Below, piece by piece: positions 6,971 to 49,300 of a DNA stretch of 64,000 nucleotides. The notes under the pieces are model-generated. The model was not told the origin of the DNA. It searched no databases and saw only the letters and a program-made list of their open reading frames with translations. Position numbers and translations under genes: made by a program. Within the stretch, counting starts at the first letter, position 1, and each line of letters begins with the position of its first letter. This DNA comes from Amylostereum areolatum (Eukaryota > Basidiomycota > Agaricomycetes > Russulales > Stereaceae): positions 124,001-188,000 of the forward strand of contig SAXG01000066.1 of NCBI GenBank assembly GCA_012932865.1, given 5' to 3'.

Positions 6971-8985
6971 ATGCAGGCAAACCTGCCACAAGGGTATCCT
7001 AAATGGTGTTGCAATCGTTCTTTCGCAAGTCCGGCAGCATATGCCAAACATCGCAAGTCCTGCTCGACCTCGCAGAGTAAATTTTCCGGCGCGCTCACTT
7101 TCCTTCGAACGAAGTTCACCTCCAAGCGTCTTCGAACTAATATCTCCACTCTCGCGTCAAAAATGTCCTCAAGTAGCAGAAAGAAATCCCCGACTCCAAT
7201 GGAACATGATGACAGTGAGGAAGGGGAGGACTCGGCAGACGAGCTGGTACGTTTTCCTCCAATTATGCGAGTATGTTGAAGTGCGTTGTGCTGAACCAAG
7301 TATATTAGCCTCACAAACAACCTTCCATGGCGATGCAAATGGACATCGACACGCCCGTCGTTGAAGAAGAATTAGGAAGATCGAAACACGCTAGACAGCT
7401 ACCTCGACGTTATGTTCAGGACGATACCCCCGCACCCTCTGCCCCGCTGCCTCCGCCACACGTCGCCCCTACTCGTGCTCTTGTAGACCGCCACCGGAAC
7501 GATCAAGACGCCGTTGATTCCCCTCGCAACATCTTCGGCGTGTTTCGTCGGTTCTTCTCATCTACCTTTCCAACACACGATCCCGAAGAACATGTTCAAG
7601 CTTCGGACCTGTCGAACTCCGCCGCTCTTCCCTCACTACCCAAACCTGCTCACCCAGAAACTGTTGATCCGTCTCGTCCACCGCCGCCATTCCCCAACAT
7701 GAACGCCTTTTGGCTCTGGCACTGGTACAACAACGGGTCCATTCAGAAGACATGGAGCGATTTTAAGCGACTCATAGGCATCGTCGGCCATCCTGACTTC
7801 CACCCAGAGGACGTGCGTGATGCAGCCTGGATGGCTATTCGATCGCAACTCGGAAATTCAGCTGGAGAGGGTGACGAAGGAGAGTGGGTGGACATGGACA
7901 ATGCCCCTGTAGGAGACGGCTGGACGGAGGCTCCCGTGTATGTATCAATTCCTGTCAAAAATCCTACAGAAACCCATAAGTCCGCGGAGTACTATGCCGG
8001 CAACTTTTACTATCGAAACCTCACGGCGACAATCCGCGAGAAGCTTACCGATGCTTCCTCTCACGAGCAGTTTCATTATGAACCATACGAACTCCTGTGG
8101 CAACCACATTCCGATTCTCCCCCGCAGCGCCTGTATGGTGAACTTTATACGTCGGAGGCCTTTCTCAAGGCCGATCGGGAGTTACAAAACAGTGCACGAG
8201 AAGCCGGATGCGACCTTCCCCACCACATTGTCGCAATGATGCATGGGTCAGATCAGACGCACCTGACTGCGTTCGGGGACGCACAACTGTGGCCTGGTTA
8301 TCTTTTTTACGGGAACGAGTCAAAGTATCGTCGCGGCCGCCCATCATATCACCTCTGCGAGAACATCGCATATTTCATCCGAGTATGTTCTTGATTATCT
8401 CCTCTTGCTTGATACCATCTCACCACACTTCTAGCTACCGCCTGATTTCAAAGATTTTGCCGTCGACGAGGCGGGTTGGATCAATCCGGACAACTCTGCC
8501 TTTCTGGCGCACGTTCGCCGGGAACTCTTCCACGCACAACTCCACATACTCTTTGACGATGAGTTTGTCGAAGCCTATACACACGGCATCGTCGTAGAAT
8601 GCCCTGATGGCATTTTCCGCCGCTTCTATCCAAGGCTCTTCACATATGCGGCTGATTATCCCGAAAGGTCTGTAATGGCCGTTTATCTATTGTTGTTGTT
8701 GTTGTTGTCCACTGATGAACCCTCCTATCATTCAGGGTTATGCTTGCGACGGTCCGGAACAAAGGACAGTGCCCATGCCCGCGATGCTTCATTCGCATGG
8801 AGGATACCCACATGCTTGGGACGGAGAGTGACATGGCTTTTCGGGTGTGTCATCAACGGGTCGATGGTGTGCAGCAACAGAAAACGGTTACAGCAGCGAG
8901 GAAGCTGATTTACAAGAAGGGCTACGGGGTCTCGAGTGCGGCAGTAGAGAGACACCTGCAAGAAAAGTCATTGGTTCCAACAGAG
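6971..8985 (+). pseudogene. Plavaka-type transposase, truncated N-terminal half
   Basis: The first exon encodes a zinc-finger-like start (CCNRSFASPAAYAKHRKSC), followed by a disordered region and the Plavaka hallmark order: FWLWHWYNNGSIQKTWSDFK, then YGELYTSEAF, an ATPase-like DQTHLTAFGDAQLWP segment, RRFYPRLFTYAADYPER, and the CPCPRC zinc motif. Exons are about 6971-7246, 7310-8385, 8435-8668 and 8737-8985, joined at GT-AG introns. Frames stay open, but the second half of a Plavaka protein (compare the complete copy at 59774-63257) is absent after HLQEKSLVPTE near 8985. The copy therefore cannot encode a full transposase. The family acts on DNA transposons of the CACTA-like Plavaka group in basidiomycetes. 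Confidence 0.7.
8686..8710. repeat. TTG trinucleotide microsatellite
   Basis: About seven TTG units in a short intron of the truncated Plavaka gene. Confidence 0.8.
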
Positions 8986-12417: not shown

Positions 12418-13668
12418 AGACCCCGGACGACTCCCTTCAACCCGATCCATATCAACGCCTACGTCTTTGCGGACCACGCCTCTCTTCCTGGCACGATCGC
12501 CCATGGCATGTGGTCGTAAATGTCCACTTGCCGCTTCGTCGACATAGGCGCAACATATGCTTCGTCGACGTGATCCTCCCCGGCGACATGTTCACCGCCA
12601 TGCTCAAGCACCCGCCATGCTCAAGCACACCCGCATGCGCGAGGGTAACATGGTCGTCGAGGCCTCGACTTCCAACCAACGCGGTGGGAAGGTTTTGAAG
12701 GCCATCACTGAGGTCGCGCAGCCGCCTACAATCTACATATCTACGAGACAAGGATCCCAGGAACCCGACATGGGCACGGATTTTTACAACAAATCCCTTC
12801 CCGCCCGCACGGTTTGGGAGGGCGTGGACGAGCTCTTGCTCGCCATCTACGGCTTCTCCATCGGTGACATCGACAACACGAAGAAGACAATTCACTTTGG
12901 CGGTATCAAAGATCAGACTATCCGTCCATGAAAATGACCTACAACATGGGACGGGAGCATCAAGACACTTCACCTGTTTGCTGACATGTGCGGGCACCTC
13001 AGTACACCTCCAACCAGTCCGCCGATCCGCTGTTCGCGACCCAGCTAGCCCAAATCGCGTTGGTCGTCACTGAGCGTGCGGCGCTCAAGAGCATGCGCTC
13101 CAGGGGCCTCGTGCAGAAAATGTCTTACTGGCCACTCGCTCGGAGCGTCCTTCACCCTTGTCAATCGCGAACGTGCTACTGATGGCGTCCTTGTCGACAA
13201 CATTTTCTACCGTGGTATCAGGACGCAGCGCGCGGTCGAGGTCACAGCCGGACGAATTACGCCATGTGCACCGTCAACCCCAGCTGGACCTAAGACGCTC
13301 GACGATACGGTTCTCCGCGAGGCTAGCAGCATGTGGATGACCAGTAGGATCGCTATATCAAGGTGTTTTGCCACAATCCCCTTGCCTGGCATCGACGTGC
13401 CCTTCCACTCGCTGTGCCTCTGGGCTGGGGTGTCATATCACTCCGTGCTTGTAAGTATCCTTCTCCCATCCTTTATTCGATGACCAACTGACCTGCCCGA
13501 AAGGCCTCTCAAAGAAGGTGAATCCCGCCTAGCTCAACCCCAACATGCTCGATGGCAAATACGTGCCCCCAACTTTATCGCTCAGCCGTTCGCCGTCACG
13601 AAGGAGTACACGTAAATCATCCGTGACCAGTCTTCATCCCACTTTCTCAAGATATTCAACAGGCATGG
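12418..13668 (+). pseudogene. Fatty acid synthase fragment (dehydratase/MPT region), left of the retrotransposon
   Basis: In shifting frames the strand reads NPIHINAYVFADHASLPGTI, EVAQPPTIYISTRQGSQEP, VWEGVDELLLAIYGFSI, YTSNQSADPLFATQLAQIAL, FATIPLPGIDVPFHS and NMLDGKYVP. This order is that of the hotdog dehydratase-like and malonyl/palmitoyl-transferase regions of fungal type I fatty acid synthase. Several frame changes and stops break it, including TAA at about 13615. The transferase GHSLGE motif is destroyed. The sequence continues after the retrotransposon at 23920, so the element landed in this already related sequence. Confidence 0.8.
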
Positions 13669-14209
13669 TGTTACAACTTGTCCAAGGTACTTCATTTTCC
13701 ATTGCCTTATTAGGAAGGACGTCGCTAAACGATGGATTACGACTGTGCCCCAGTTCGTAACTGTCTCAACGACGCAACAACGACAGTGCCACAGATCGTC
13801 ACCGTCCCGACGACAGTGCCACAGATCGTCACCGTCTCAATGGCACAGCCGTGACGGTGCCACAGTCTCATCCCCGTAGATACTTGATGCGACCGTCGCT
13901 CAATGTACATATATTTACTCGACCTCCTTTCTTATAAAAGGAGGCTCATCGAACGAGCCATTCCTCAGCTCGTTCTCTTTGTAAATACAGGACTGTTCTG
14001 AATAAGAACCTCCTCTTAAACACTAAAGAGAATCCTAAGCATACTAAGTCGATAAGACTCGCCTAAGTCTTCCGCGAAGACTTACTGCTTCGTCTATCGA
14101 CCTTCACCTTCGTATAAACCGAGACGTCTGGATCACCTGATCCCACCTCTCACGCGTAAGAGTACTGTAGCCTGAGCCGCTTGTCACGTGATAAGGACCG
14201 TCCTTAACA
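13669..14209 (+). repeat. 5' LTR (541 bp)
   Basis: Begins TGTTACAACTTG and ends CCTTAACA. It contains two 26-bp near-identical units with the core GACAGTGCCACAGATCGTC (13782 and 13812, 30-bp spacing), a TATA box TATAAAAGG at 13933-13941 and an 8-bp inverted repeat GAACGAGC/GCTCGTTC at 13951-13975 around the likely start of transcription. Confidence 0.95.
13933..13941 (+). promoter_or_regulatory. LTR TATA box
   Basis: TATAAAAGG. About 26-34 bp downstream lies AGCTCGTTCT (13967-13976), a plausible transcript 5' end. The same box is present in the 3' LTR at the corresponding position. Confidence 0.75.
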
Positions 14210-14211
14210 CT

Positions 14212-14221
14212 AGAACGAGCT
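14212..14221 (+). other. Candidate self-priming primer-binding site
   Basis: AGAACGAGCT starts two bases after the 5' LTR. It is the exact reverse complement of AGCTCGTTCT (13967-13976), just downstream of the TATA box where the mRNA should start. Tf1/sushi chromoviruses prime reverse transcription with the mRNA 5' end in this way. No tRNA-type site starting TGG is seen next to the LTR. A TGGCGCAGAGCGTC string at 14250 is an alternative but is 40 bp away. Confidence 0.55.
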
Positions 14222-14279
14222 CTCCTCTACACTAGCTCACCCTACAGTTTGGCGCAGAGCGTCAAACGAAACACCCACC

Positions 14280-16331
14280 ATGGAGTCAGCGGAACAACCC
14301 GCTGAAAAAAGACCATCAGATTTTGAGATCCCTCAACTCCAATCAAACGGCAGTCGAGACTTCCCTAATGGAAACGAAGATCATCGCTGGACATTTGACC
14401 CCTATCATCTCCTTTTTTACTACGACGGAGCCCTCGTCGCGAAAGAAAGCAAAGGGACATACGCATACCAGTGGAACCCACCCATATACAGATACAACCT
14501 TCCCCCAGCAGCAGAATACTTCAAAGATAGATCCAAAAGAGAAAAGGAAGACGGAAGCTACGACAATTCACATTGGAAGCGCCCAGATTATTCAAGACCT
14601 CATATCGGGCCCCTCTCATCAGAAGAACTCTGGAAACACCCGGACGCACAGAAAATCGAAGAGAAACCTTACACCGGGAATATTAAGGACTACTGGGAAT
14701 TTGATCCCGATACCGACACAGCCGATACGACAACCGAACCACAGAATCCTCGAACCGAACTCCAGCATCCTCAAGAACCCGCAACAGCCGCACCACCTCC
14801 AGAGGAAACCGCGCCAGAACCTAAGAGAACTATATCAAACCCCCAAATTAAGTCCGATTCCGGAGGAAGTCGAGAAAGTAGCCCATCGAGCGCAGCAAAA
14901 ACGGAAGAACATACAGAGAACCCAACAAGATCCCCATCACCCGACGACATCTTCGGAACCACAAGAGGAAGAAAAGGAAATCTATTCGGAAAACCCGAAA
15001 ACATCGCATCAATGGGAGACACCGCCACCTCGATACCCAACCTCGCCACCGCACTTGGCAATGTCCCCCCTGGAGAGACTAATGTACCGCGCCAGACGCC
15101 TGCAACTCCAACACCAGCCGATCCCGCAAAACCGAGACATGAGACTCGATTCTCCCTAGGATTTGGCACGACCGACCCAATAAGATGGAGAACGCTATCA
15201 CCACCATCACCATCACTTTCCAACCGATCAATAGATAACAAGAAAGGAAAAGAAGTTCAGGACTACGTCTTCGGAAGAGGAGCAACTGCAGATCTTCCGA
15301 AAGGATCGAAGTATCCACCAGGGAATTCCCCACCGGGAGGAACAGGAACAATCGGATCAAAGCCCGACGACAAGGACAAAGGATTCAAGTTAAACGCATT
15401 AGGAGTATATGACGGAAGGGATCGGGCAAAAGCAGCAAAGTTCGTAGAACAATGCGTACTTCGCTTCATAGCATTCCCCAACGCATATGCTGCCAACATG
15501 CGTAAGATAACCTTCGTGCTCTCACATCTCACCGATGGGCCTGCCCTTCACTGGGCGTCCCTTTTAATAAGCAAAATCGATAAGATACGAGATCGCGGCC
15601 TAGATCCAGAAGCGTACCTTCCATGGACGGTGTTCCGCGACCACTTCTTAGAGACCTTTGGAGAAATAGACCCCGGAAGGGACGCTAGATTCAACATACA
15701 GCGCCTGGAACAAGGCACTATGGACACCAAAGATTACATCACGATTTTCAGAGACTATGCCATGGAAGCTGGTTACGATCATAAAGCATTGATCGACCAA
15801 TTCAAGAGAGGACTGCGCAACGATATCGTAGTCGAGATCCTCAAGAGAGATCACATCTCGAACGATATTGAAGAATGGTATGAACTCGCATTGCGCATCA
15901 ATAATAACTGGCGAGAAGCTCAAGCATTCCAACGGCATTATACGAGACCAATGAACCCAACGAGCGACCTCACCCTCCTATACAAGAAACCACAGGCGTA
16001 TGTTCCATTCCGAAAAGGAAACGGAAACAAAGGAAACGTTACCACCGCCAGAGCCGCTCAGACCGGAAACAACGGCCGAAACTTCAGACGCCTTACCCCG
16101 CAAGAACGTACCGAACTCCAGAAATCAGGATCATGCTTCTATTTCCGGAAGCCAGGACACATCTCCAAGAACTGCCCAGAGAAACGTACCCAGACAACGA
16201 TCAATGCACGAACAGCGAATCTAACAGAGGAAGAATCCCCGATTGATCAGATCACCAAGCTTGTGAACAAGATGGACAGTGAAACGTTCGCACGCACTGC
16301 CAACATTTTCAAGAACAATCAGGATTTTTAA
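14280..16331 (+). CDS. gag: Gag polyprotein of the chromovirus, 683 aa
   Basis: ATG at 14280 is the first ATG after the leader. The N-terminal ~370 residues are Pro/Ser/Glu-rich and probably disordered. Residues ~375-560 form a Ty3-type retrotransposon gag domain (for example HWASLLISKIDKIRD, YLPWTVFRDHFLETFGEID, RLEQGTMDTKDYITIF, LIDQFKRGLRND). Near residue 619 is a CCHC-type knuckle, SCFYFRKPGHISKNC, in which the second cysteine (residue 622) is Phe, so zinc binding is probably impaired. Gag forms the particle and packages RNA. It ends in TAA at 16329-16331. Pol lies in another frame. Confidence 0.92.
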   Translation: MESAEQPAEKRPSDFEIPQLQSNGSRDFPNGNEDHRWTFDPYHLLFYYDGALVAKESKGTYAYQWNPPIYRYNLPPAAEYFKDRSKREKEDGSYDNSHWKRPDYSRPHIGPLSSEELWKHPDAQKIEEKPYTGNIKDYWEFDPDTDTADTTTEPQNPRTELQHPQEPATAAPPPEETAPEPKRTISNPQIKSDSGGSRESSPSSAAKTEEHTENPTRSPSPDDIFGTTRGRKGNLFGKPENIASMGDTATSIPNLATALGNVPPGETNVPRQTPATPTPADPAKPRHETRFSLGFGTTDPIRWRTLSPPSPSLSNRSIDNKKGKEVQDYVFGRGATADLPKGSKYPPGNSPPGGTGTIGSKPDDKDKGFKLNALGVYDGRDRAKAAKFVEQCVLRFIAFPNAYAANMRKITFVLSHLTDGPALHWASLLISKIDKIRDRGLDPEAYLPWTVFRDHFLETFGEIDPGRDARFNIQRLEQGTMDTKDYITIFRDYAMEAGYDHKALIDQFKRGLRNDIVVEILKRDHISNDIEEWYELALRINNNWREAQAFQRHYTRPMNPTSDLTLLYKKPQAYVPFRKGNGNKGNVTTARAAQTGNNGRNFRRLTPQERTELQKSGSCFYFRKPGHISKNCPEKRTQTTINARTANLTEEESPIDQITKLVNKMDSETFARTANIFKNNQDF

Positions 16332-16369
16332 ACCGTCCTTCAAACGCGGCTGTTGAAAGGACACAGACA

Positions 16370-19300
16370 ATGAACTTTTCAAGTCGATCTTCTGTACAGG
16401 ATATAGAAGATGACATAAATAGAACAGTGTATATAAGGTCATACCAAGACGGAGCAACACACGCTCCATCAATCCATATACCTGTTACGTTTCATGGAAA
16501 GCTCCGTAAAGCCGCCGCAAAAGCACTGCTAGATAGCGGAGCAAGCAGCACCCTGATCCATCCAGATTTCGTACGAAAACACAAGATGAATCTGATCCAA
16601 CTGAAGAAGCCAATACCGATATACAACGTTGATGGATCTCGGAACACTCTAGGAGAGATCAAACAGAAGGTGTACCTTCCAATGACGATGGAAGGGATCA
16701 ACGGAGAAATTCACCGTGAAAACTTAGGATTGTTCGTCACAGCCCTGGGAGGAGACGAAGTAATCTTAGGAACCCCTTGGCTCAAGAAACACAATCCTCA
16801 TATCGATTGGAGGAAGAGACAGATTACACTACAGACATGTCCAGGTACGTGCTCCACTACCAGTAAAACAATGATCGTCCAGGGAAAAGACGAACACTCT
16901 CTACAATCATTCGAAGAACAGAAGATCAACCATCACGCAACGATAGAAGAACAAGAAGACCCCGAATTCAACTCCGATCTCGCCGATATCAGGATAGTCA
17001 GAACGTTCCATGGAAAGACTGACGTAGAAACAATGCCGATTGCAGAAGAAACAAACGAACCCGGTATTTGGATAACAGCAAGAGCAACCAAGGCACAAGA
17101 ACTCGCAGAAAGAGCGGCCATAGGAGAAAAGAAGAAGACACTCGAGAAGATGATTCCGTCTAGTTACAGACAGTATCAGAAGGTATTCGAAAAGAAAGCG
17201 TCAGAACGCTTTCCAATCAGCAGACCTTGGAATCACGCGATAGACTTGACTGAAGGATGGAAACCTCGAAATTGCAAAGTGTACCCAATGACGGTACCAG
17301 AACGGAAGGAACTGGACACATTCATAGATGAACATCTACGAAAAGGGTACATCCGAGAATCAAAATCAGAGATATCATCACCCTTCTTCTTTATCAAGAA
17401 GAAAGACGGATCTCTTCGACCAGTACAGGACTATCGCTATCTTAACTCGATCACGGTCAAAAATGAATACCCGATACCGCTCATCTCAGATCTCATCGAC
17501 AAATTAAAAGGCGCTAAGATCTTCTCAAAGCTCGATCTCCGATGGGGATACAACAATGTTCGAATCAAAGAAGGAGATCAATGGAAAGCTGCATTCAAAA
17601 CAAACAGAGGCCTTTTCGAACCAATGGTAATGTTCTTCGGACTAACCAACTCACCCGCAACATTCCAAGCAATGATGAACGCACTGTTCAAAGAATTAAT
17701 AGACACCGGAAAAGTGGTGGTCTATATGGATGACATACTGATATTTACAGAAACACTCGACGAACATAGGAAACTGATGAAAGAAGCCCTCCAACTTCTA
17801 GAACGGAACGATCTATTCCTGAAACCAGAGAAGTGCTTCTTCGAACGACCATCGATCGAATACCTAGGCGTGATAATCACACACAACAAGGTACAGATGG
17901 ACCCAGTCAAAGTCCAAGGGCTAGCCGAATGGCCCACACCGAGGAAAGTAAAAGAAGTCCAATCATTCCTCGGATTTGGAAATTTCTATCGACACTTCAT
18001 CAAAGACTATTCTAAGATCGCCAGACCCCTATTCCAGCTCACAAAGAAAGACCACGAATGGAACTGGACGACCGAATGTGAACGTACCTTCGAAAGACTG
18101 AAACGAGAATTCACGTCGTCCCCAATCTTAATCATGCCCGATGAAAACAAACCATTCCGCATAGAGAGTGACGCCTCCGATTTTGCGTACGGAGCTATCC
18201 TATCGCAGCCGGATGAGATCGAAAGATGGTATCCGGTCGCGTACCTATCCAAATCACTGTCTCCCGCGGAACAGAATTACGAGATATACGACAAAGAACT
18301 CTTAGGAGTAGTGAAAGCCTTAGAACACTGGCGACACTATCTAGAAGGAGCGAACCACAAAGTCGAAATCTGGACAGATCATAAAAATCTAGAATATTTC
18401 ACAACAGCTCAGAAACTCAATCGACGGCAAGCACGATGGAGCTTGTATCTGTCCCGTTTCGACTACACCTTGGTGCACAAACCAGGAAGTACAAACAAGG
18501 CAGATGGACTTTCTAGAAGACCAGATCATAAGGAAGACATTCCAGACAACGACGACCGCATCCTGCTTCACCCTTCGGTTTTCAGGGCTAGAGCCACCGG
18601 AAGAGGAACAGTCGAAGCAGTCGGAGACAAAGAACTTCTCAAAGAACTAAGAAACTTCTCGCACCTAGATGATGAAGTTTGGACAGCGTTAGATACAATC
18701 AAAAGATCGGGACCGCGCACCCTCGCAAAAGGAATCGAAGATTGGAACTTCGAGAACGATCTGATCATCAGAAAAGGAAAGATCTATGTGCCACAGAATC
18801 TCGAACTTAGACGCATGATCCTAAAATCGCATCATGATCTGGAAACGATTGGACATCCAGGCGAAATGAAAACTCTGGAGCTGGTACAAAGAAACTTTTG
18901 GTGGCCAAAGATGATTTCCTTCGTAAAAGGTTATGTTCAAGGATGTCCCGTATGCCAGTCAACAAAGAATGTCACGCATCCGGCAAAACATCCATTACAA
19001 CCTACGGAAATACCAGAACGACCATGGGAAACAATCACATCAGATTTCATTACAGATCTTCCGATCTCCAACGGATTCGATTCGATCAACGTAGTCGTCG
19101 ACAGGTTCACCAAAACCGCAGTATTCACGCCGTGCCTGAAGACGATCAACGCAGAAGAAACAGCTGATCTTCTGATCGACAATGTTTACAGACGATTTGG
19201 ACTATGGAAAAGAATGATATCGGACAGAGGCCCTCAATTCGCATCCAAAGTATTCCAATCCATCTGCGAAAGCCTCGGAGTTATCTCGTCGCTCAGTACA

Positions 19301-20215
19301 GCGTACCATCCCCAAACGGATGGCGAAACAGAAAGAGTGAATCAAGAGTTAGAACAATATCTTCGAGCATTCTGCAACGGAGATCAAACGAATTGGGCAA
19401 AACTTCTACCAAAAGCAGAATTTGCACACAATATAAGACAACATTCAGCTACGAAAGCTTCCCCATTTGAACTCCTACACGGGTATCAACCGGTTTTTAA
19501 CCCGGCAATACCAACCGATCCGCGAATACCGACAGCCGAAGAAAGAATAAAGAACTTTAAGGACGCATGGGACAACGCAGAAGCAAGTCTGGAAATAGCT
19601 GCCAAATTAATGAAAATGCAGCATGATCAAACGTTCACACTGCGAGATCAACTCAAACAGGGTGACCAAGTATGGTTAGACGGGAAAAATCTTAACACGG
19701 TATACCCGAAAACTAAACTAGCACCAAAGCGATTCGGCCCATTCAAAATCGAAAAAGTAATAGGACCAGTAACCTATCGCTTAGAACTACCGGCGAAGTG
19801 GAAAATACATCCGGTATTTCACGCGGCACTATTAATTCCGTTCAAAGAAACAGAACAATATGGAGAAGCTTACGAAAAACCGCCTCCGGAACTAGTAAAC
19901 GATGAAGAACTCTACGAACTAGAAACAATAATAGCCTCGAAACTAGACAAACGATATTCCGAACCATTACATTATTTCGTAAAATGGAAAGGCTACCCAG
20001 ATTCCGGTAACACATGGGAACCAGCATCTAATCTCGAAGGATCAAAAGATGCGATCGCAGAGTTCCATCGGAATAACCCCAAGGCACCGAAGTTGCCACC
20101 ACAGCCAATCAGAGATACCAACACAGAAGCCACTGATCGTGACGAAACCGACGCAACACAGCAAGAACAAAGACCAACGAGACGAAAGAAACGCAAGACG
20201 AAAGTAAGACATTAG
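16370..20215 (+). CDS. pol: Pol polyprotein: PR-RT-RH-IN-chromodomain, 1281 aa
   Basis: Protease has LLDSGASS (Asp ~55). Reverse transcriptase has the YMDD box (~452). RNase H has ESDAS (~600). Integrase has an HHCC finger around HHDLETIGHPG and CPVCQ (~820-865), then a DDE core (SDF ~891, SDRG ~950, ETERVNQE ~990). A chromodomain fills ~1181-1236 (YELETIIASKL, YFVKWKGYPDSGNTWEP). All motifs look intact, so enzymatic activity is possible. The frame is open upstream to 16283, overlapping gag by ~49 nt. The first ATG is at 16370, 39 nt after the gag stop. Expression must involve frameshifting or re-initiation. A Lys/Arg-rich tail ends the protein. Confidence 0.95.
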   Translation: MNFSSRSSVQDIEDDINRTVYIRSYQDGATHAPSIHIPVTFHGKLRKAAAKALLDSGASSTLIHPDFVRKHKMNLIQLKKPIPIYNVDGSRNTLGEIKQKVYLPMTMEGINGEIHRENLGLFVTALGGDEVILGTPWLKKHNPHIDWRKRQITLQTCPGTCSTTSKTMIVQGKDEHSLQSFEEQKINHHATIEEQEDPEFNSDLADIRIVRTFHGKTDVETMPIAEETNEPGIWITARATKAQELAERAAIGEKKKTLEKMIPSSYRQYQKVFEKKASERFPISRPWNHAIDLTEGWKPRNCKVYPMTVPERKELDTFIDEHLRKGYIRESKSEISSPFFFIKKKDGSLRPVQDYRYLNSITVKNEYPIPLISDLIDKLKGAKIFSKLDLRWGYNNVRIKEGDQWKAAFKTNRGLFEPMVMFFGLTNSPATFQAMMNALFKELIDTGKVVVYMDDILIFTETLDEHRKLMKEALQLLERNDLFLKPEKCFFERPSIEYLGVIITHNKVQMDPVKVQGLAEWPTPRKVKEVQSFLGFGNFYRHFIKDYSKIARPLFQLTKKDHEWNWTTECERTFERLKREFTSSPILIMPDENKPFRIESDASDFAYGAILSQPDEIERWYPVAYLSKSLSPAEQNYEIYDKELLGVVKALEHWRHYLEGANHKVEIWTDHKNLEYFTTAQKLNRRQARWSLYLSRFDYTLVHKPGSTNKADGLSRRPDHKEDIPDNDDRILLHPSVFRARATGRGTVEAVGDKELLKELRNFSHLDDEVWTALDTIKRSGPRTLAKGIEDWNFENDLIIRKGKIYVPQNLELRRMILKSHHDLETIGHPGEMKTLELVQRNFWWPKMISFVKGYVQGCPVCQSTKNVTHPAKHPLQPTEIPERPWETITSDFITDLPISNGFDSINVVVDRFTKTAVFTPCLKTINAEETADLLIDNVYRRFGLWKRMISDRGPQFASKVFQSICESLGVISSLSTAYHPQTDGETERVNQELEQYLRAFCNGDQTNWAKLLPKAEFAHNIRQHSATKASPFELLHGYQPVFNPAIPTDPRIPTAEERIKNFKDAWDNAEASLEIAAKLMKMQHDQTFTLRDQLKQGDQVWLDGKNLNTVYPKTKLAPKRFGPFKIEKVIGPVTYRLELPAKWKIHPVFHAALLIPFKETEQYGEAYEKPPPELVNDEELYELETIIASKLDKRYSEPLHYFVKWKGYPDSGNTWEPASNLEGSKDAIAEFHRNNPKAPKLPPQPIRDTNTEATDRDETDATQQEQRPTRRKKRKTKVRH

Positions 20216-20260
20216 TGAGACTCAACGGCATTCAGGCGAATGCACTGCCAACAAGGGGGG

Positions 20261-20270
20261 GATAAAAACC
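20261..20270 (+). promoter_or_regulatory. TATA-like box upstream of the extra gene block
   Basis: GATAAAAACC follows a G run between the pol stop (20215) and the first downstream ATG (20298). The same GATAAAA core precedes two later start codons of the block (22605 and 23101). Candidate internal promoter. Confidence 0.4.
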
Positions 20271-20358
20271 CTACGGGTTCAACAAGACAGATCACCAATG
20301 TCCACCACCCCAAACGCAGCCAACACTTCCTCCACCAATCCGATCGTCTCATCTAGCA

Positions 20359-22137
20359 ATGTCGACCACCTCCGCCTCGTCTGCAACCGAGTTCACCACT
20401 CTCAACAGGAACACGCCCTCTGTGGAGACTGCTTCATCGCTCGATCAGCAGCAATCCTTGCAATTAAGTCAGTACCTTCTCCGCCTAGGTCAGGACCAGA
20501 CGGAAGAACAGACAGAAGAGCAAGGGGTAAGCCGCTTAGAAGCACACAGAAGAACCCTAACTGAAGCACCCGGATTCCTCACAGGTGCTAATGCAATCCC
20601 CGTGGCCCGGAGCAGCGGAAGTCCCAACGCCCGATTCCCCGATACTCGAGAGTCAGATAGCCCGCATGATAGCCGGAGTAGCACTCGAGCAGGCCAGACA
20701 GTGGATCGACGACCTCAGGAGGGAGTCGGCCGACGTCCAGGACATCCTGAAGAACCACGTCAAGATGCTCGACGGAGAACTCCGCCAGCTAGACTCGAGG
20801 TACCTGACGCTCTCAACCGAGATGGAGGAGCGAGAGGTCAAGCTTCTTCGACGATTCCGGAAGCTAGCGCAGCGGCTGTACTCAATGTCGCAGAGCTCCG
20901 GAGATTCCTTACTGAAGTCGGACACAGAGTCAACTGGCTCAACTGGGAAAGACACACCTTCCGCGCCGCCTACGAAGGAGAAATCCTCCGCAGACGAATG
21001 GAAACTACCGGAGTTCCCCATATGTCGTCACGCGGCGGCCCCGACATCGACCTCATCTTCCATGGACATCACATCTCCCCGGGCTATACTGTTCGACCCG
21101 ATCCCATCGCATCCGCCCTCGCCAGACCCCCGTTCCTTCCTAACGCCCCTCCACGACCCGTCACCGCTCCCACCCCGCCGGGATCCATACCCATCCCCGG
21201 CCTCACCCACATTAACCCCATCCGACCTCCCGTCGCTCAAAGCGGAGTACCCGGAGAGCTGTTCAGACAGCCCCTGCCAGGAGAGCTATCGGGACAGCCC
21301 CTGGTCCTTCCAGAGCTCGGACAACCGACCGGACGACCGACCAGCAGTCCGCGACCAGTACCTAGGACACCTCCTCGGCTGCCCGCCGTGCCTAGACCGC
21401 CAACTCCATTCCCACTATCTGCTGGCGATGCTCCCATGCCGTGGCACGGAGGCCCCGCCCCCTATCCCTCGTTCCTACGTCCGCACCCCGACCACGCTCG
21501 AGATCCCGTCACCCAAGATCCCCGAGTCACCGCACAGCGACGTAAACATGATTCTGTCGACCCCGACGGAAGACCGTTCAAGCGAATCAGAGAGCTCAGA
21601 CTCCCCGATGCATCGGGTGAGGAAGAACTTCGAGGAGCTCCAGAAGATAGTCGATCGGATGATGGAAGACCGCGCTCGCCGGAGACAGGAACTCAACCTA
21701 ACGGACGAGTCGGACAGTTCAGCGAACGAATCGGACAGTTCGGCGGACAAGGCGGAAGAAACGGCCGAGAATCCCTCGGACCAGTGGAGCAACGAGCCGA
21801 CCACGTGGACGCAAGAGAAGTGGGACGCAATTCCCTCGAAGCCGCGGAAACGCTGCTGGAAATGCGGCAAGCGAGGCCATCTCCGCCGAGATTGTCCCCG
21901 TCGCAAGGACGCTCCCCCTCACTTCCCCCGATCTCGGTCCTGCTATCCCCTCCGACCACAGACTCCTCTTCCTCACCCTCGCCCGAGCCGTCCGGATATC
22001 AGTTACGGTCCAGGAACACTGATGTCCCACCCCCACCTCCGACGTACCGACGCTACCGCCCGCGCCCACAGGCAGCTTCTGGGATTCCTCACGCGACGCG
22101 AGAGCCTGACGCACGAAGCCGCCCAACACGCCACTGA
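20359..22137 (+). CDS. Alternative unspliced frame of the same locus, 592 aa
   Basis: If the intron 20527-20584 is retained, translation from the same ATG (20359) stays open for 592 codons. It overlaps the spliced frame for 1.55 kb in a different phase. The product is Pro/Arg-rich but includes folded-looking stretches (VAELRRFLTEVGHRVNWLNW, HTFRAAYEGEILRRR, FHGHHISPGY). It could be a genuine overprinted protein or an accident of GC-rich sequence selected for the other frame. The TGA at 22135-22137 is followed in the same frame by 132 more codons that include a membrane-like segment. Confidence 0.4.
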   Translation: MSTTSASSATEFTTLNRNTPSVETASSLDQQQSLQLSQYLLRLGQDQTEEQTEEQGVSRLEAHRRTLTEAPGFLTGANAIPVARSSGSPNARFPDTRESDSPHDSRSSTRAGQTVDRRPQEGVGRRPGHPEEPRQDARRRTPPARLEVPDALNRDGGARGQASSTIPEASAAAVLNVAELRRFLTEVGHRVNWLNWERHTFRAAYEGEILRRRMETTGVPHMSSRGGPDIDLIFHGHHISPGYTVRPDPIASALARPPFLPNAPPRPVTAPTPPGSIPIPGLTHINPIRPPVAQSGVPGELFRQPLPGELSGQPLVLPELGQPTGRPTSSPRPVPRTPPRLPAVPRPPTPFPLSAGDAPMPWHGGPAPYPSFLRPHPDHARDPVTQDPRVTAQRRKHDSVDPDGRPFKRIRELRLPDASGEEELRGAPEDSRSDDGRPRSPETGTQPNGRVGQFSERIGQFGGQGGRNGRESLGPVEQRADHVDAREVGRNSLEAAETLLEMRQARPSPPRLSPSQGRSPSLPPISVLLSPPTTDSSSSPSPEPSGYQLRSRNTDVPPPPPTYRRYRPRPQAASGIPHATREPDARSRPTRH

Positions 22138-22297
22138 GCAGTGGCTGTACTGGGAGGACGCAATGCTCCGCACTCAGCGAGAACCCCCCTCGCGCTTCAA
22201 TCACTCCTGGCGCGTCGACGATCTCTTCTGGAAGGAAGAAGATTGGGACTTGCAGGAAGCGGAGGAGTCGAAGGATCACTGGCCGGAACCCTGGTAA
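20359..22297 (+). CDS. Spliced extra gene of the chromovirus: coiled-coil, CCHC-knuckle protein, 626 aa
   Basis: Exon 1 20359-20526 (56 codons, MSTTSASSATEF...), intron 20527-20584, exon 2 20585-22297. The 58-bp intron has a GTAAGC donor, CTAAC branch site 24 nt before the acceptor, and CACAG acceptor. Exon 1 ends on a codon boundary and exon 2 continues in phase. Residues ~75-150 are rich in heptad-like patterns (QARQWIDDLRRESADVQDIL, EVKLLRRFRKLAQRL). The middle is Pro/Ser-rich. Residues ~480-493 are a canonical knuckle, CWKCGKRGHLRRDC. The layout is Gag-like without a recognisable capsid domain, so an RNA-binding accessory protein is a reasonable guess. Lying downstream of pol, it needs its own or a spliced mRNA. 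An ATG at 20298 in another frame could interfere. Confidence 0.7.
20527..20584 (+). other. 58-bp intron acting as a frame switch
   Basis: Donor GTAAGC, branch CTAAC (20557-20561) and acceptor CACAG match the consensus of the host introns in this window. Splicing gives the knuckle protein; retention gives the 592-aa frame. Confidence 0.7.
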
Positions 22298-22539
22298 GCG
22301 CGCGGACAGACTTTACCCATCATCATGCACTCGGACTTTCTCTCTCCCCCCATCGTTACGCTCTCGCATCTATCGTCACGATACTTCTCGGACTGATCAT
22401 AGACTGCGCCCTCATCCGCACGCATATTTTCCTCGGACTTCTCTACTATACCGGTTTCTATCGCTATGAGGAAGGCGAGACACTTGATATTCTCTCCGCG
22501 ACGCGCTGGACGCGTCGCCTGCTTACGACTCAGTTTTGA
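22138..22539 (+). other. Open stretch with a membrane-like segment, no ATG
   Basis: In the frame of the 592-aa product, after its TGA, 132 codons are open and lack any Met. They contain YALASIVTILLGLIIDCAL and FLGLLYYTGFY, which look like one or two membrane segments, then a charged tail. It could be joined by readthrough, by an unrecognised splice, or be non-coding. I found no acceptor that joins it cleanly to the knuckle protein. Confidence 0.3.
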
Positions 22540-22604
22540 TTATGTACGAATCATCGCTTACGATTGCTGGCAATGATTACATCATTGCCCCTCCGCATCG
22601 TAAG

Positions 22605-22613
22605 GATAAAAGG
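22605..22613 (+). promoter_or_regulatory. TATA-like GATAAAAGG
   Basis: Lies 73-81 bp upstream of the ATG at 22686, followed by an A/C-rich leader-like stretch. Confidence 0.4.
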
Positions 22614-22685
22614 GAAAGCTACAAAGACCACAACACCCTCAGACATCGTCTAAACAAACCCACTCACACCACCCACACCAACCAA

Positions 22686-23069
22686 ATGTCTTCCACCCTC
22701 ACCTCCTCATCGCGCAACCTCTCCACCACCGACCACACTCCCCCTACCACTCCTCCTCCCTCGCCCGTCCTCTCGCGCACTCCCACGCCTGACCCACAAG
22801 ACGAAGAACTCCTTCGTCATCTCAAGAGAGTCACGGAACTCCTCAGCCGTCCGGACGTCACTCGCGCCACGAAGAGGCCGAGAAGTCTAGACGAAGAAGC
22901 CATGCGGGAGTCGAAAGGGAAATGCGGCATTAGAGGGGTATTCCGGAAGCACGGCCCCCGGTTCAGAAGCCCGGACCACACGACGACGGCGAGGATAGGG
23001 CATCGGCTAGGGTCTCCCACGATGGACGGGGAAGACGTAAAAGTAGTGGAGGCGTTACTGAAGCGGTAG
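22686..23069 (+). CDS. Small unknown protein of the chromovirus, 127 aa
   Basis: ATG 22686 follows an A/C-rich leader and a GATAAAAGG box. The N terminus is Ser/Thr/Pro-rich (SPVLSRTPTPDPQDEELLRH), the C-terminal half is basic (RATKRPRSLDEEAMRESKG and KCGIRGVFRKHGPRFRSPDH). No domain is recognised. It sits between the knuckle gene and the membrane-protein gene, so it is part of the non-standard 3' block. It may be an accessory protein or a leftover of an older gene. Confidence 0.45.
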   Translation: MSSTLTSSSRNLSTTDHTPPTTPPPSPVLSRTPTPDPQDEELLRHLKRVTELLSRPDVTRATKRPRSLDEEAMRESKGKCGIRGVFRKHGPRFRSPDHTTTARIGHRLGSPTMDGEDVKVVEALLKR

Positions 23070-23100
23070 AATAGAATTCTATCGCTCGATTCCGGATAGG

Positions 23101-23109
23101 GATAAAAGG
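23101..23109 (+). promoter_or_regulatory. TATA-like GATAAAAGG
   Basis: Third copy of this box, 35-43 bp upstream of ATG 23144 (and 16-24 bp upstream of ATG 23125 in another frame). Confidence 0.4.
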
Positions 23110-23143
23110 AGTGAACATCAAAACATGAGGACTCAGAAGCGTG

Positions 23144-23584
23144 ATGCAGCCCACTCAATCGCCCGATCTCGCGATTTTCAATACGCCTACTCCACGCTGG
23201 CTCATCGCCGTCATCAGCATCATCGTAGGACTTACGATCCTCATATTCCTCGCATCAACAATATTCCTCCTCCAATGGCGAAGAGCGAGCGATCGACAGC
23301 ATGTTCAAGAAATCCCTCTAGAACCGCTTCGATTCAGGAATCTACGAGACGTAGATTCTAGAGAGGGGGATAGTGTTACAACTTGTCCAAGGTACTTCAT
23401 TTTCCATTGCCTTATTAGGAAGGACGTCGCTAAACGATGGATTACGACTGTGCCCCAGTTCGTAACTGTCTCAACGACGCGACAACGACAGTGCCACAGA
23501 TCGTCACCGTCCCGACGACAGTGCCACAGATCGTCACCGTCTCAATGGCACAGCCGCGATGGTGCCACAGTCTCATCCCCGTAG
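23144..23584 (+). CDS. Small single-pass membrane protein running into the 3' LTR, 146 aa
   Basis: After a short polar start (MQPTQSPDLAIFNTPTPR) comes one clear membrane segment, WLIAVISIIVGLTILIF followed by LASTIFLLQW, then a basic stop-transfer RRASDRQ and a polar tail. The last ~70 codons read into the LTR repeat units, giving a CHRSSPS repeat. An Env-position gene with a membrane segment is reminiscent of env-bearing LTR elements, but I see no signal peptide, fusion motif or cysteine pattern, so I do not call it Env. A competing ATG at 23125 opens a 78-codon frame in another phase. Confidence 0.45.
   Translation: MQPTQSPDLAIFNTPTPRWLIAVISIIVGLTILIFLASTIFLLQWRRASDRQHVQEIPLEPLRFRNLRDVDSREGDSVTTCPRYFIFHCLIRKDVAKRWITTVPQFVTVSTTRQRQCHRSSPSRRQCHRSSPSQWHSRDGATVSSP
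23360..23370 (+). other. Polypurine tract
   Basis: AGAGAGGGGGA ends three bases before the 3' LTR, the usual position for plus-strand priming. Confidence 0.75.
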
Positions 23585-23914
23585 ATACTTGATGCGACCG
23601 TCGCTCAATGTACATATATTTACTCGACCTCCTTTCTTATAAAAGGAGGCTCATCGAACGAGCCATTCCTCAGCTCGTTCTCTTTGTAAATACAGGACTG
23701 TTCTGAATAAGAACCTCCTCTTAAACACTAAAGAGAATCCTAAGCATACTAAGTCGATAAGACTCGCCTAAGTCTTCCGCGAAGACTTACTGCTTCGTCT
23801 ATCGACCTTCACCTTCGTATAAACCGAGACGTCTGGATCACCTGATCCCACCTCTCACGCGTAAGAGTACTGTAGCCTGAGCCGCTTGTCACGTGATAAG
23901 GACCGTCCTTAACA
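23374..23914 (+). repeat. 3' LTR (541 bp)
   Basis: Same length as the 5' LTR, with three differences found by eye, all C/T or G/A at CpG sites. Ends CCTTAACA followed by CATGG. Confidence 0.95.
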
Positions 23915-23919
23915 CATGG

Positions 23920-46303: not shown

Positions 46304-49300
46304 ATGGCCCGTCAAGGAAAGGTCATTTGCACCTGTCTGGCTCATTGTGGCGGCAGGAAGGAAGTGTCTTGGAGCACATACGACCGACATGCAAGTGCGC
46401 GCTATGGAACACAAACTGTCCCGGGCCCATCAGCGTCTGGACTCCTACAGCAACACACATCTGTTCAGGCGTCCACTCAGAGTCGAAAACGGACGGCTGT
46501 AGAAAGTGACGGTACCATTCAAGGACCATCGAAGCAAGCTCGAGTAGGAGAAATCCTGTTAGCAGATACTAAAACATCGGTATATCTCACCCGTCCTATT
46601 CGTTGTTCTTCGGTTTCACGTCGTCCCTTGCAGAGAACGATTACACCTCCTAGCGCAGACAAACCGACGTCGCTCGACGCAACAGGGAACACTCATCCAA
46701 TAGAGCACCCATCGCGATCCAACAGCATGCAGGCAGAAGATGACCATGCGGCGGGCACGCACGCCGATATCCCGCACAGTTCCCCACCACCTCTCCCCGA
46801 CTTTGATACCTTCGAAGAGCCTGCGCAAGACCTACCGCTCCGTTCAAGCCCAGAACCTCTCCCATCTGAGAGCGCGCCGGACCCCGGAAGTCTGGATGCA
46901 TTGGCTATAGAAGACACGGCAGACGACACGGCAGACAACGCTGCAGTCTCCACTTCCGACGGTCCTTCTCTGCCGAACAACAATGCGGGCAGCACCTTAC
47001 TCTCCCCGATGTTCACCGTCCCACTGCGGAAACTTCATCATCGACAATTCGCGATATCGCTTGGGTGGAGGCGTTCATCACAGCGCTGGCATCGGCGTCA
47101 CTGGACAAGTCCATCACAGACCCCGAACTGGTTCACCTGCTTCGTCACCCAGTCGAAGGAGTACCTAACATCGAGGACAAGATGTTACGCCATTCTATTG
47201 AGGTTTTCCTTGCCGTCGGGAACACGTCGCAAGAGACTTACCATCGTGTTCGTGCGTCCACTCAAAGGTGTTTTGAAGGTTCGGAAATGTTGTCGTACGA
47301 CCAGGTCAAGCGTCGCATCTCCGAGTTGAGCGGGGTGGTCCCCATTGTTCACGACATGTGCATCAACTCGTGTCTGGCGTTTACTGGTCCGTTTGAGAAG
47401 GAGGAACAATGCCCTCTCTGCCTTCAGCCACACTTTGATCAGGACAAACTGGCTGCTAGCGGAGGTGTGCTCAAAGTTCCGCGCCAGGAGTTCCATACCA
47501 TCCCACTCGGTCCTCAGTTACAGGCCCGTCGGCGGTCACCCGAGATGGCAAAAATGATGCAATACGGAGCCCTCAGGATGGCGGAGATTCTCAAGGAGGT
47601 GGACAGCAAGGGTCGGATCCAGATCGACATCTACAACGACGTCTTCCATGGGCATGATTTGCTTGACGCTGTGATCAAGGGTGTCATCCAACCAGACGAC
47701 ACCGTCCTGATGCTGTCGATCGACGGCGCTCAGCTCTACAAGAACAAAGCATCAGACACCTGGATCTATATCTGGATTCTTTTTAACCTCCCCCCGGATT
47801 CGCGTTACCAAAAGGTACACATCCTACCAGGCAGTTTCATACCAGGCCCCAATAAGCCGAAGAACCTGGATTCTTTCCTTTTCCAGGGCCTCTTCCATCT
47901 TGCAGCGCTCCAACACGAGGGTCTCCGTGTTTGGGATGCCACCACAAATAGAGTCATCACAGACCGTCCATTTTTAGCATTTGCTACTGCCGACACTCTA
48001 GCCATGGCCCTGCTCGACAGCATGGTCGGACATCACGGGCATTTTGGGTGCCGGTTCTACTGCCCGATGCCCGGTCAACACAAGGATGGCCGACCGCAAT
48101 ATTATCCCGCCTGCCTCAAGCCGGACAACTATTCAATTGCAGGCTCCGACCATGATGACATCTCGTTGCAAACATTGGCATCAATATTCTCAGCTGAAAG
48201 TTCAACTCGGTACACATCTTTTCATTATGAAAATAAACCTTCCTCATTTACGGTGTGCGTAGGTACCGGGCAAACTTGGCATCTGTAGCAGCGTCACGGA
48301 CTGCGACCAAATACAAGCAGCGCCGTCTCGCCACTGGAATTGCAAAGCCGAGCATCTTCAGCGGCTTGCCGCAATTTATGGGCATTCCGGCCGCATTCCC
48401 CGCCGACCTCATGCACCTGGTTTCCCTCAATCTCCCCGACCTCCTCATCAGTCTTTGGCGAGGGACAATCAAATGTGAACCCACGGACAGCAAAGACGAC
48501 TGGGTGTGGCGCGTTCTCATCGGGGAAACTTGGAAAGAATTGGGGCGGATAATAGCGGCAATCGCCCCCTACCTCCCGGGCTCCTTCGACAGGCCGCCCC
48601 GCAACCCAGCCGAGAAAATGTCCAGCGGCTATAAGGCATGGGAGTTTCTGCTCCTTGTCTTTGGTCTCTTTCCTGCGCTGTTAGACGATATATTACCCAC
48701 GATCTTTTGGAAGAACTTTTGCCAGCTCGTGTTTGGAATCCGCCTTCTACATCAGCGGGAGATCACGAAGACCGAGCTCGTTGCAGCACACAAGGCGTTG
48801 GTCAAGTTCTCGGAGGATTTCGAACTCTTATACTACCAGAGGCGAGTGGATCGCCTCCACTTTTGCCGTCCGAGTGTTCATCAAACTCCGCACCTGGCTC
48901 CGGAGTCAACGCGTTGTGGCCCACTTGGCCTTTCGTCGCAGTGGCCTATGGAGCGCACAATCGGAAACCTCGGGCAGGAAGTCAAGCAGCCGTCAAATCC
49001 GTACGCAAGCCTCTCTCAACGAGGTCTCCTACGAGGGCAGGTAAACACGATGAAGGTGATGATGCCGGAGCTTGAACCAGAGCCGTCACCGATTCCACAA
49101 GGAGCTATCGAGTTGGAAGACAAGTATGTGCTTCTGCGCGCCAAGGACACATGCGCGCGCGACGTCCGTCCGTGCGAGGCTGAATACATCCGTGAGTATG
49201 TCCGTGCAGAAGGTGGAGAGTGTGAGGACACATACATGCCACAAGTGACCCGATGGGCCCGCTTACGTCTCCCTAATGGGCAGACAGCACGGTCAGCGTG

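Follow-up and report, generated by a model that had tools for sequence, protein, structure and literature searches.

A conserved accessory block behind pol in a chromovirus family of Amylostereum areolatum, with two probable genes in overlapping frames

We analyzed a 64,000-nt stretch of the Amylostereum areolatum genome (assembly GCA_012932865.1, contig SAXG01000066.1, positions 124,001 to 188,000 of the forward strand; hereafter the window) and identified a complete Ty3/Gypsy chromovirus at 13669-23914 on the plus strand. The element carries a block of additional genes between pol and its 3' long terminal repeat (LTR). We consider it likely, with a probability of about 0.7, that it belongs to a recently mobile chromovirus family with a four-gene accessory module, in which the first two genes, A and B, are made from one spliced mRNA with two starts. 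In the proposed arrangement, a single mRNA with a 58-nt intron would carry both start codons, and ribosomes that pass the weaker first start (ATG 20298) would initiate at the second (ATG 20359). A would then be read in frame 0 and, behind the intron, in frame 1, while B would be read in frame 1 and then in frame 2. Two further genes, for a 127-aa protein and for a membrane protein with one pass, would come next, each behind a TATA-like box.

The block was compared in an alignment of 39 rows over positions 20000-23916, comprising the window copy, L010-L041 and L043-L048. L010-L038 were the best matches of a genome search with the block DNA, so that close copies are over-represented, while L039-L041, L043 and L044 are stretches that end inside the block. 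Three further copies stood outside the alignment, namely L042 (766 block bases), L049 (an insertion) and L050 (an internal deletion). Pairwise identity in the A/B part was 0.83-0.998 with a median of 0.92. The ratios of nonsynonymous to synonymous differences (pN/pS) combine pairs of copies that are related and in part recombined, and have no significance on their own; in the coding frames of the block they were roughly 0.1-0.45.

A and B overlap over ~1.5 kb of exon 2 in different frames, and along this exon the two frames carry codon constraint in turn, as read from the substitutions. Frame 2 was constrained at 20600-20869 (pN/pS 0.28-0.41), while at 20840-21109 the ratio was 0.15-0.22 in frame 1 versus 0.79-3.67 in frame 2. 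Constraint was found again in frame 2 at 21200-21889 (0.36-0.67), in frame 1 at 21950-22049 (0.15-0.20) and in frame 2 at 22050-22299 (0.05-0.15). Stop codons were counted over the 39 rows and were rare in frame 1 (6 of 18,750 codons) and frame 2 (2 of 18,787) as against 889 of 18,748 in frame 0; the stop of B was present in 38 of 38 copies. Changes that were missense in both frames were rarer than changes silent in A (odds ratio, OR, 1.45; p 0.0019) and rarer than changes silent in B (OR 1.96, p < 0.0001). Past the constrained part of A, at 22046-22293, the A effect was gone (OR 0.78, p 0.60) and the B effect was at its strongest (OR 7.1). Judged by these patterns, the open reading frames (ORFs) 20359-22137 and 20585-22297 are both coding across most of their overlap; frames, starts and splice signals are conserved among the copies, and the substitutions demonstrate selection on both frames of exon 2.

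We also permuted the synonymous codons of B within each sequence (1000 shuffles). The shuffles predicted 10.4-13.0 frame-1 stops over 20585-22045, with about 10 for the window copy, while none was observed in 6 of 6 copies, and 0 of 1000 shuffles were as low each time. Frame 0, which served as the control, had no stop depletion. The depletion extended to 21152-21859, where the amino-acid constraint on frame 1 is weak: 9 of 9 copies had no stop versus 4.1-6.4 expected (P 0.006 or less). The reverse shuffle, of frame 2 given A in two A-dominated segments, was uninformative because only 0.4-1.3 stops were expected. Since the constraint changes frame at about 20840, 21150, 21860 and 22045, the region could instead encode a single protein from exons that switch frame several times. 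We consider this very improbable, as only two donor-like GTRNG sites occur at 20585-22290 (21617, kept in 79%, and 21820), no unconstrained gap of intron size lies at the switch points, and frame 1 stays free of stops across 21152-21859, where such a protein would make no use of it.

The signals that would link the two frames to two starts are conserved as well. The donor of the intron is GTAAGC in 38 of the 39 aligned copies and GTAAGA in the remaining one, the branch site CTAAC is present in 37 of 39 and the acceptor in all 39. ATG 20298 and ATG 20359, which lie 61 nt apart, were both found in 38 of 38 copies, with a C at -3 of the former (the weaker context) and a G at -3 of the latter. The 58-nt intron moves the reading on by one frame, and hence ATG 20298, in frame 0, leads to frame 1 (A) and ATG 20359, in frame 1, to frame 2 (B); because both starts precede the same intron, A and B keep their mutual register. 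Within exon 1, frame 0 had no stop in any row and had the lowest pN/pS before the ATG of B (0.44). In the part of exon 1 common to both genes, transitions silent only in frame 0 (15/56) were as frequent as those silent only in frame 1 (14/54), and those missense in both frames were rarer (7/45). We infer from this layout that A and B share an mRNA and that B is reached by leaky scanning.

The motif GGATAAAA occurs at three sites in the window, both strands counted, and these lie ahead of three of the four block gene starts; most of the copies that do not have the exact motif carry A/T-rich variants of it. This placement is striking, though noticed after the fact, and suggests candidate internal promoters, no more.

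Several observations weigh against the two-start interpretation. Double coding of exon 1 was a trend only (Mantel-Haenszel p 0.07 for frame 0 and 0.13 for frame 1; shuffle P 0.18-0.30). In the site-class comparison, the segment limits were chosen after the sliding windows had been seen. An early stop of A was found in several copies with full B (e.g. L013, L017, L021, L031, L033 and L037); among the 38 copies with exon 1 (L034, which is without it, excluded), 22 had full B, in 19 A stayed open into the last 80 codons of the exon, and 16 combined the two. With three sites, GGATAAAA was not over-represented in the window (11 of 100 shuffles reached 3). The avoidance of A stops was mixed when matched for context, with CGA at 6 of 24 versus 7 of 17 for other CG (p 0.22) and CA[AG] at 0 of 18 versus 4 of 14 for CA[CT] (p 0.03). 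Finally, frame 1 has no stop in the intron, and the intron varies less than the exons around it, as would also be expected under intron retention.

Because of this open and well-conserved intron, retention is the main rival explanation. It holds that A comes from unspliced RNA, translated in frame 1 from ATG 20359 through the intron, and B from spliced RNA, so that the two would share their first 56 residues and splicing would act as a switch. In line with it, frame 1 was stop-free across the intron in all 39 rows, heterozygosity was 0.031 in the intron versus 0.057 in exon 1 and 0.082 in exon 2, and the lowest pN/pS of the intron was that of frame 1 (0.29, few changes). However, ATG 20298 is invariant, frame 0 is free of stops in exon 1 and has the lowest pN/pS before the ATG of B, and the match between transitions silent in frame 0 only and in frame 1 only would be unexpected if frame 1 alone were coding. 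We therefore regard retention as unlikely, though less so than any other rival. The mixed context-matched test, together with the GC-rich composition of the A/B region (0.61 versus 0.44 in pol), which lowers stop frequency, would also fit a case in which B alone is real and frame 1 is open and constrained through base composition or an antisense gene. But the shuffles that preserve the codon usage of B still predicted many stops, frame 1 had pN/pS 0.15-0.22 where that of frame 2 was 0.79-3.67, and in the window copy 10 stops interrupt the antisense frame that shares the wobble position. That explanation is accordingly a highly improbable one.

Abundance of the block was assessed in the 57.1-Mb genome (182 contigs). 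The search with block DNA gave 40 scored copies among 221 candidates. With the C-terminal 83 aa of B as query, 150 of 201 candidates were scored as matches, at 90-100% identity and with an internal stop in 9; with the 127-aa protein, 150 of 221 candidates were scored, at 78-100% identity and with an internal stop in 7. A 49-base stretch from the block start matched 133 genome sites at ≤3 mismatches versus none for the reversed control. These counts put the family that carries the block at well over 100 copies in the genome. Pol lay directly upstream of the block in 28 of the 29 loci from the block DNA search that were fetched with upstream sequence (the exception was L034), and also in 4 of 4 more divergent copies (L045-L048). 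Six pol relatives were chosen because no block had been listed next to them, and all six, fetched on the downstream side, continued into the block (L042 for 766 bases only). Given this linkage at the fetched loci, no family member with pol and without a trace of the block was met in the part of the family examined. The preliminary description of the element had looked to other copies for dN/dS-type ratios below 1, and to copies lacking the block, or with stops and neutral substitution in it, as counter-evidence. Ratios of this type were indeed below 1 across the aligned copies, all from one genome; the frames were kept under purifying selection at 83-99.8% identity, and the pol-bearing members examined all had at least a trace of the block.

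Two stretches, L051 and L052, represent two other chromovirus families (pol 42.7% and 41.6% identical), one stretch each. No match to A, B, the 127-aa protein or the membrane protein was found in the 3.7 kb behind their pol, and each has a purine run and the LTR-like TGTCATGA (putative LTRs) where the pol frame ends or a short way beyond. L049 (C118) was considered as another family bearing the block and was rejected; it has an apparent Gypsy insertion at block position 22027, read as nested because 855 bases beside the break match another Gypsy stretch, in L051, at 98.7%. L050 (C39) is without the stretch from pol position 20139 to block position 21226 and has an open frame of 1641 aa. Among L010-L038, identity to the window copy changes abruptly between modules: in L026-L028 it is about 87% in the A/B part versus about 98% at 22298-23373, and in L016 and L022 it is 97-99% in the A/B part and 81-97% behind it. 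These module-wise switches look like recombination among family members during reverse transcription.

The 127-aa basic protein and the membrane protein follow behind a spacer (Table 1). The best 19-residue hydropathy of the membrane protein is 2.86. Its frame has no stop before the LTR and enters the 3' LTR, with an end that varies among copies. A hydrophobic stretch in frame 1 of the spacer (22300-22540; pN/pS about 0.45) was tried as a fourth gene and dropped because many of the copies inspected do not keep the frame and its candidate acceptor is present in 1 of 38. The preliminary description had listed intact gag and pol and a 3.1-kb block in the env position with a spliced CCHC-knuckle gene, a basic 127-aa protein and a single-pass membrane protein ahead of the polypurine tract. 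Both gag and pol are open, with Pfam domains through the chromodomain, and all three block proteins are present. The membrane-protein frame does not end before the polypurine tract, and the CCHC gene (zf-CCHC, 1.7e-05 in Pfam), though spliced and conserved, does not stand alone and is half of the overlapping pair with A. The lack of recognizable Env features also agrees with our Pfam scan, in which A, B, the 127-aa protein and the membrane protein matched no Env family. From the place of the block ahead of the LTR and behind pol, and from the selection on the single-pass membrane protein, one might still suppose that this protein, alone or with its neighbors, acts as an envelope. However, it measures about 77 aa as far as the LTR, about 18 of which precede the membrane span, and no similarly hydrophobic stretch was found in A, B or the 127-aa protein. 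An envelope role is thus hardly probable.

Table 1. Positions of the chromovirus and its accessory genes in the window
Feature	Position	Strand	Remarks
Target-site duplication CATGG	13664..13668		again at 23915-23919
5' LTR	13669..14209	+	541 bp; TATAAAA at 13933
gag	14280..16331	+	open; Retrotrans_gag 1.8e-08 (Pfam)
pol	16370..20215	+	open; protease, reverse transcriptase, RNase H, integrase, SH3_Tf2-1, terminal chromodomain (Pfam)
Accessory block	20216-23373		3,158 bp between pol stop (20215) and 3' LTR
TATA-like GGATAAAA	20260..20267	+	38 nt before ATG of A; exact in 38/38 copies
Gene A (probable)	20298..22137	+	593 aa; frame 0, intron, frame 1; stop 22135-22137
Gene B (probable)	20359..22297	+	626 aa; frame 1, intron, frame 2; stop 22295-22297
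Intron, common to A and B	20527..20584	+	58 nt; donor, branch and acceptor conserved
Spacer	22298..22685	+	fast changing at 22298-22395; no gene supported
TATA-like GGATAAAA	22604..22611	+	82 nt before 127-aa gene; exact in 23/35 copies
127-aa basic protein	22686..23069	+	net charge +7; pN/pS 0.20
TATA-like GGATAAAA	23100..23107	+	44 nt before membrane-protein gene; exact in 17/34, GAYAWAR in 33/34
Single-pass membrane protein	23144..23584	+	ATG 23144; pN/pS 0.23 up to LTR; stop 23582-23584 in this copy
Polypurine tract GAGAGGGGGATAG	23361..23373	+	directly abuts 3' LTR
3' LTR	23374..23914	+	3 differences from 5' LTR

The element shows the chromovirus features examined, namely Gag, pol in the order protease-reverse transcriptase-RNase H-integrase-chromodomain, two LTRs, a purine tract and a target-site duplication. 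The LTRs (TGTTAC...TAACA) differ at 3 of 541 positions and are flanked on both sides by the 5-bp duplication. In the window copy, the Gag zinc knuckle (16100-16200) deviates from CCHC; a role of B as substitute for a lost Gag knuckle was considered and given up, since 7 of 7 other fetched Gag copies have CCHC. A purine run at 20252-20267, just behind pol and ahead of the block, resembles the 3' polypurine tract; it may mark an earlier 3' end of the element or serve as a second primer for the plus strand. Beyond the element, an ORF at 23893-24990 matches the fatty acid synthase type I helical domain; since it starts inside the 3' LTR end and continues beyond, insertion of the element into or next to that gene is possible. 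Matches to Plavaka transposase and Transposase_21 at 7327-8394 and 47065-48288 mark further transposon remnants. The fatty acid synthase domain and the Plavaka transposase are in keeping with a fungal, probably basidiomycete, host.

Relatives of the block proteins were sought more widely. A, B, and the CCHC and C-terminal part of B had no match at E 0.001 among 5.8 billion proteins, which is weak evidence of absence because this collection is uncalibrated for fungal transposon proteins. Against viral contigs, pol had no match and B had three pattern matches, none of them confirmed. The single-sequence structure models were poor (mean predicted local distance difference test score 62.5 and 59.8), with two helices in the C-terminal part of B and one long helix in the conserved segment of A. 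B has one zinc knuckle, a net charge of -19 and a near-invariant C-terminal domain whose two helices were modeled with moderate confidence, while A is Pro- and Arg-rich with a net charge of +19. An oppositely charged pair in which one protein has an RNA-binding motif would suit a role in post-transcriptional regulation, in packaging or in defence against silencing. Among these we lean, tentatively and at less than even odds, toward RNA regulation or packaging; with the same reserve, B may be an auxiliary protein, RNA-binding, nucleocapsid-like or RNA-regulatory in kind, acting together with A of opposite charge.

That the block was an acquired accessory set, as had been suggested earlier, holds as far as a conserved gene set is concerned; for acquisition from elsewhere, the searches yielded no source or relative. 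The block could be a captured piece of host DNA or of another mobile element that serves its source rather than the retrotransposon, and its GC content (0.61 in A/B and the 127-aa gene, as against 0.54-0.57 for the flanks and 0.44-0.49 for pol and gag) is in line with this. However, purifying selection in many copies and the position directly behind pol in 28 of 29 loci point to a role in the element, and neither the protein collection nor the viral contigs contained a source. We find this explanation quite improbable; a past capture as such does not conflict with two-start overlapping genes.

By every feature tested, the element is a chromovirus with extra sense genes of a known type, the additional ORF (aORF), behind pol; as in sense aORFs, many copies share these additional sense frames ahead of the 3' LTR. 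In plant LTR retrotransposons, according to the part of the source available, most copies of a family carry a sense aORF-3S downstream of pol and ahead of the 3' LTR, splicing is reported for the Bagy2 aORF, and the plant examples are mostly called env-like (PMC7264820). The likeness, by description only, lies in sense genes behind pol, and the available text describes no two-frame overlapping pair for them (PMC7264820). Among fungal Gypsy elements, Boty/BcGypsy1 of Botrytis has an extra ORF, brtn, listed as antisense (PMC8365987, PMC7264820), and Tcn1-like elements have an 'add. ORF' (PMC2864245), as far as the excerpted sources go. These too carry an extra gene, compared here by description only, and no overlapping pair is described for them in those excerpts. 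More broadly, we found no description of an overlapping two-frame pair in an LTR retrotransposon in the open-licence literature, as far as its accessible text goes.

Closer parallels in layout come from retroviruses. In the pX region of deltaretroviruses, Tax and Rex overlap near the 3' end and are made from one mRNA with different starts, splicing and leaky scanning, as the consulted part of the source describes (PMC3744397). Two predicted proteins in overlapping frames of one region are likewise found here from sequence, a likeness of layout only. Deltaretroviruses, however, are vertebrate retroviruses, and for A and B one two-start mRNA is a prediction. The Pfam scan gave no Tax or Rex family for A or B, and no comparison aimed at Tax/Rex proteins was made. 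Foamy viruses are described, in the portion of the source at hand, with accessory genes before the 3' LTR, overlapping tas/bel2, tas/bet and a TATA-bearing internal promoter (PMC3798896). The chromovirus perhaps resembles them in having accessory genes behind a candidate internal promoter; foamy viruses, as there described, differ in having env, and in the chromovirus an internal promoter is suggested by the motif alone. We file the element under neither deltaretroviruses nor foamy viruses.

Regulatory accessory genes and long overlapping frames are usually seen as marks of viruses with tight genomes. It is possible, with a chance that we put slightly below even, that a cellular LTR retrotransposon has here independently evolved the layout of a complex retrovirus, with its own promoters for the 3' regulatory genes, a short, spliced leader exon with two staggered starts, and an overlap of ~500 codons from which one mRNA would yield two proteins in different frames, one of them an RNA-binding protein with a zinc knuckle. 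With more than 100 copies in one genome, a retrotransposon that bears so long an overlap under selection would be a natural experiment on the origin of gene nests, and it may also inform what an element without an evident envelope needs such genes for.

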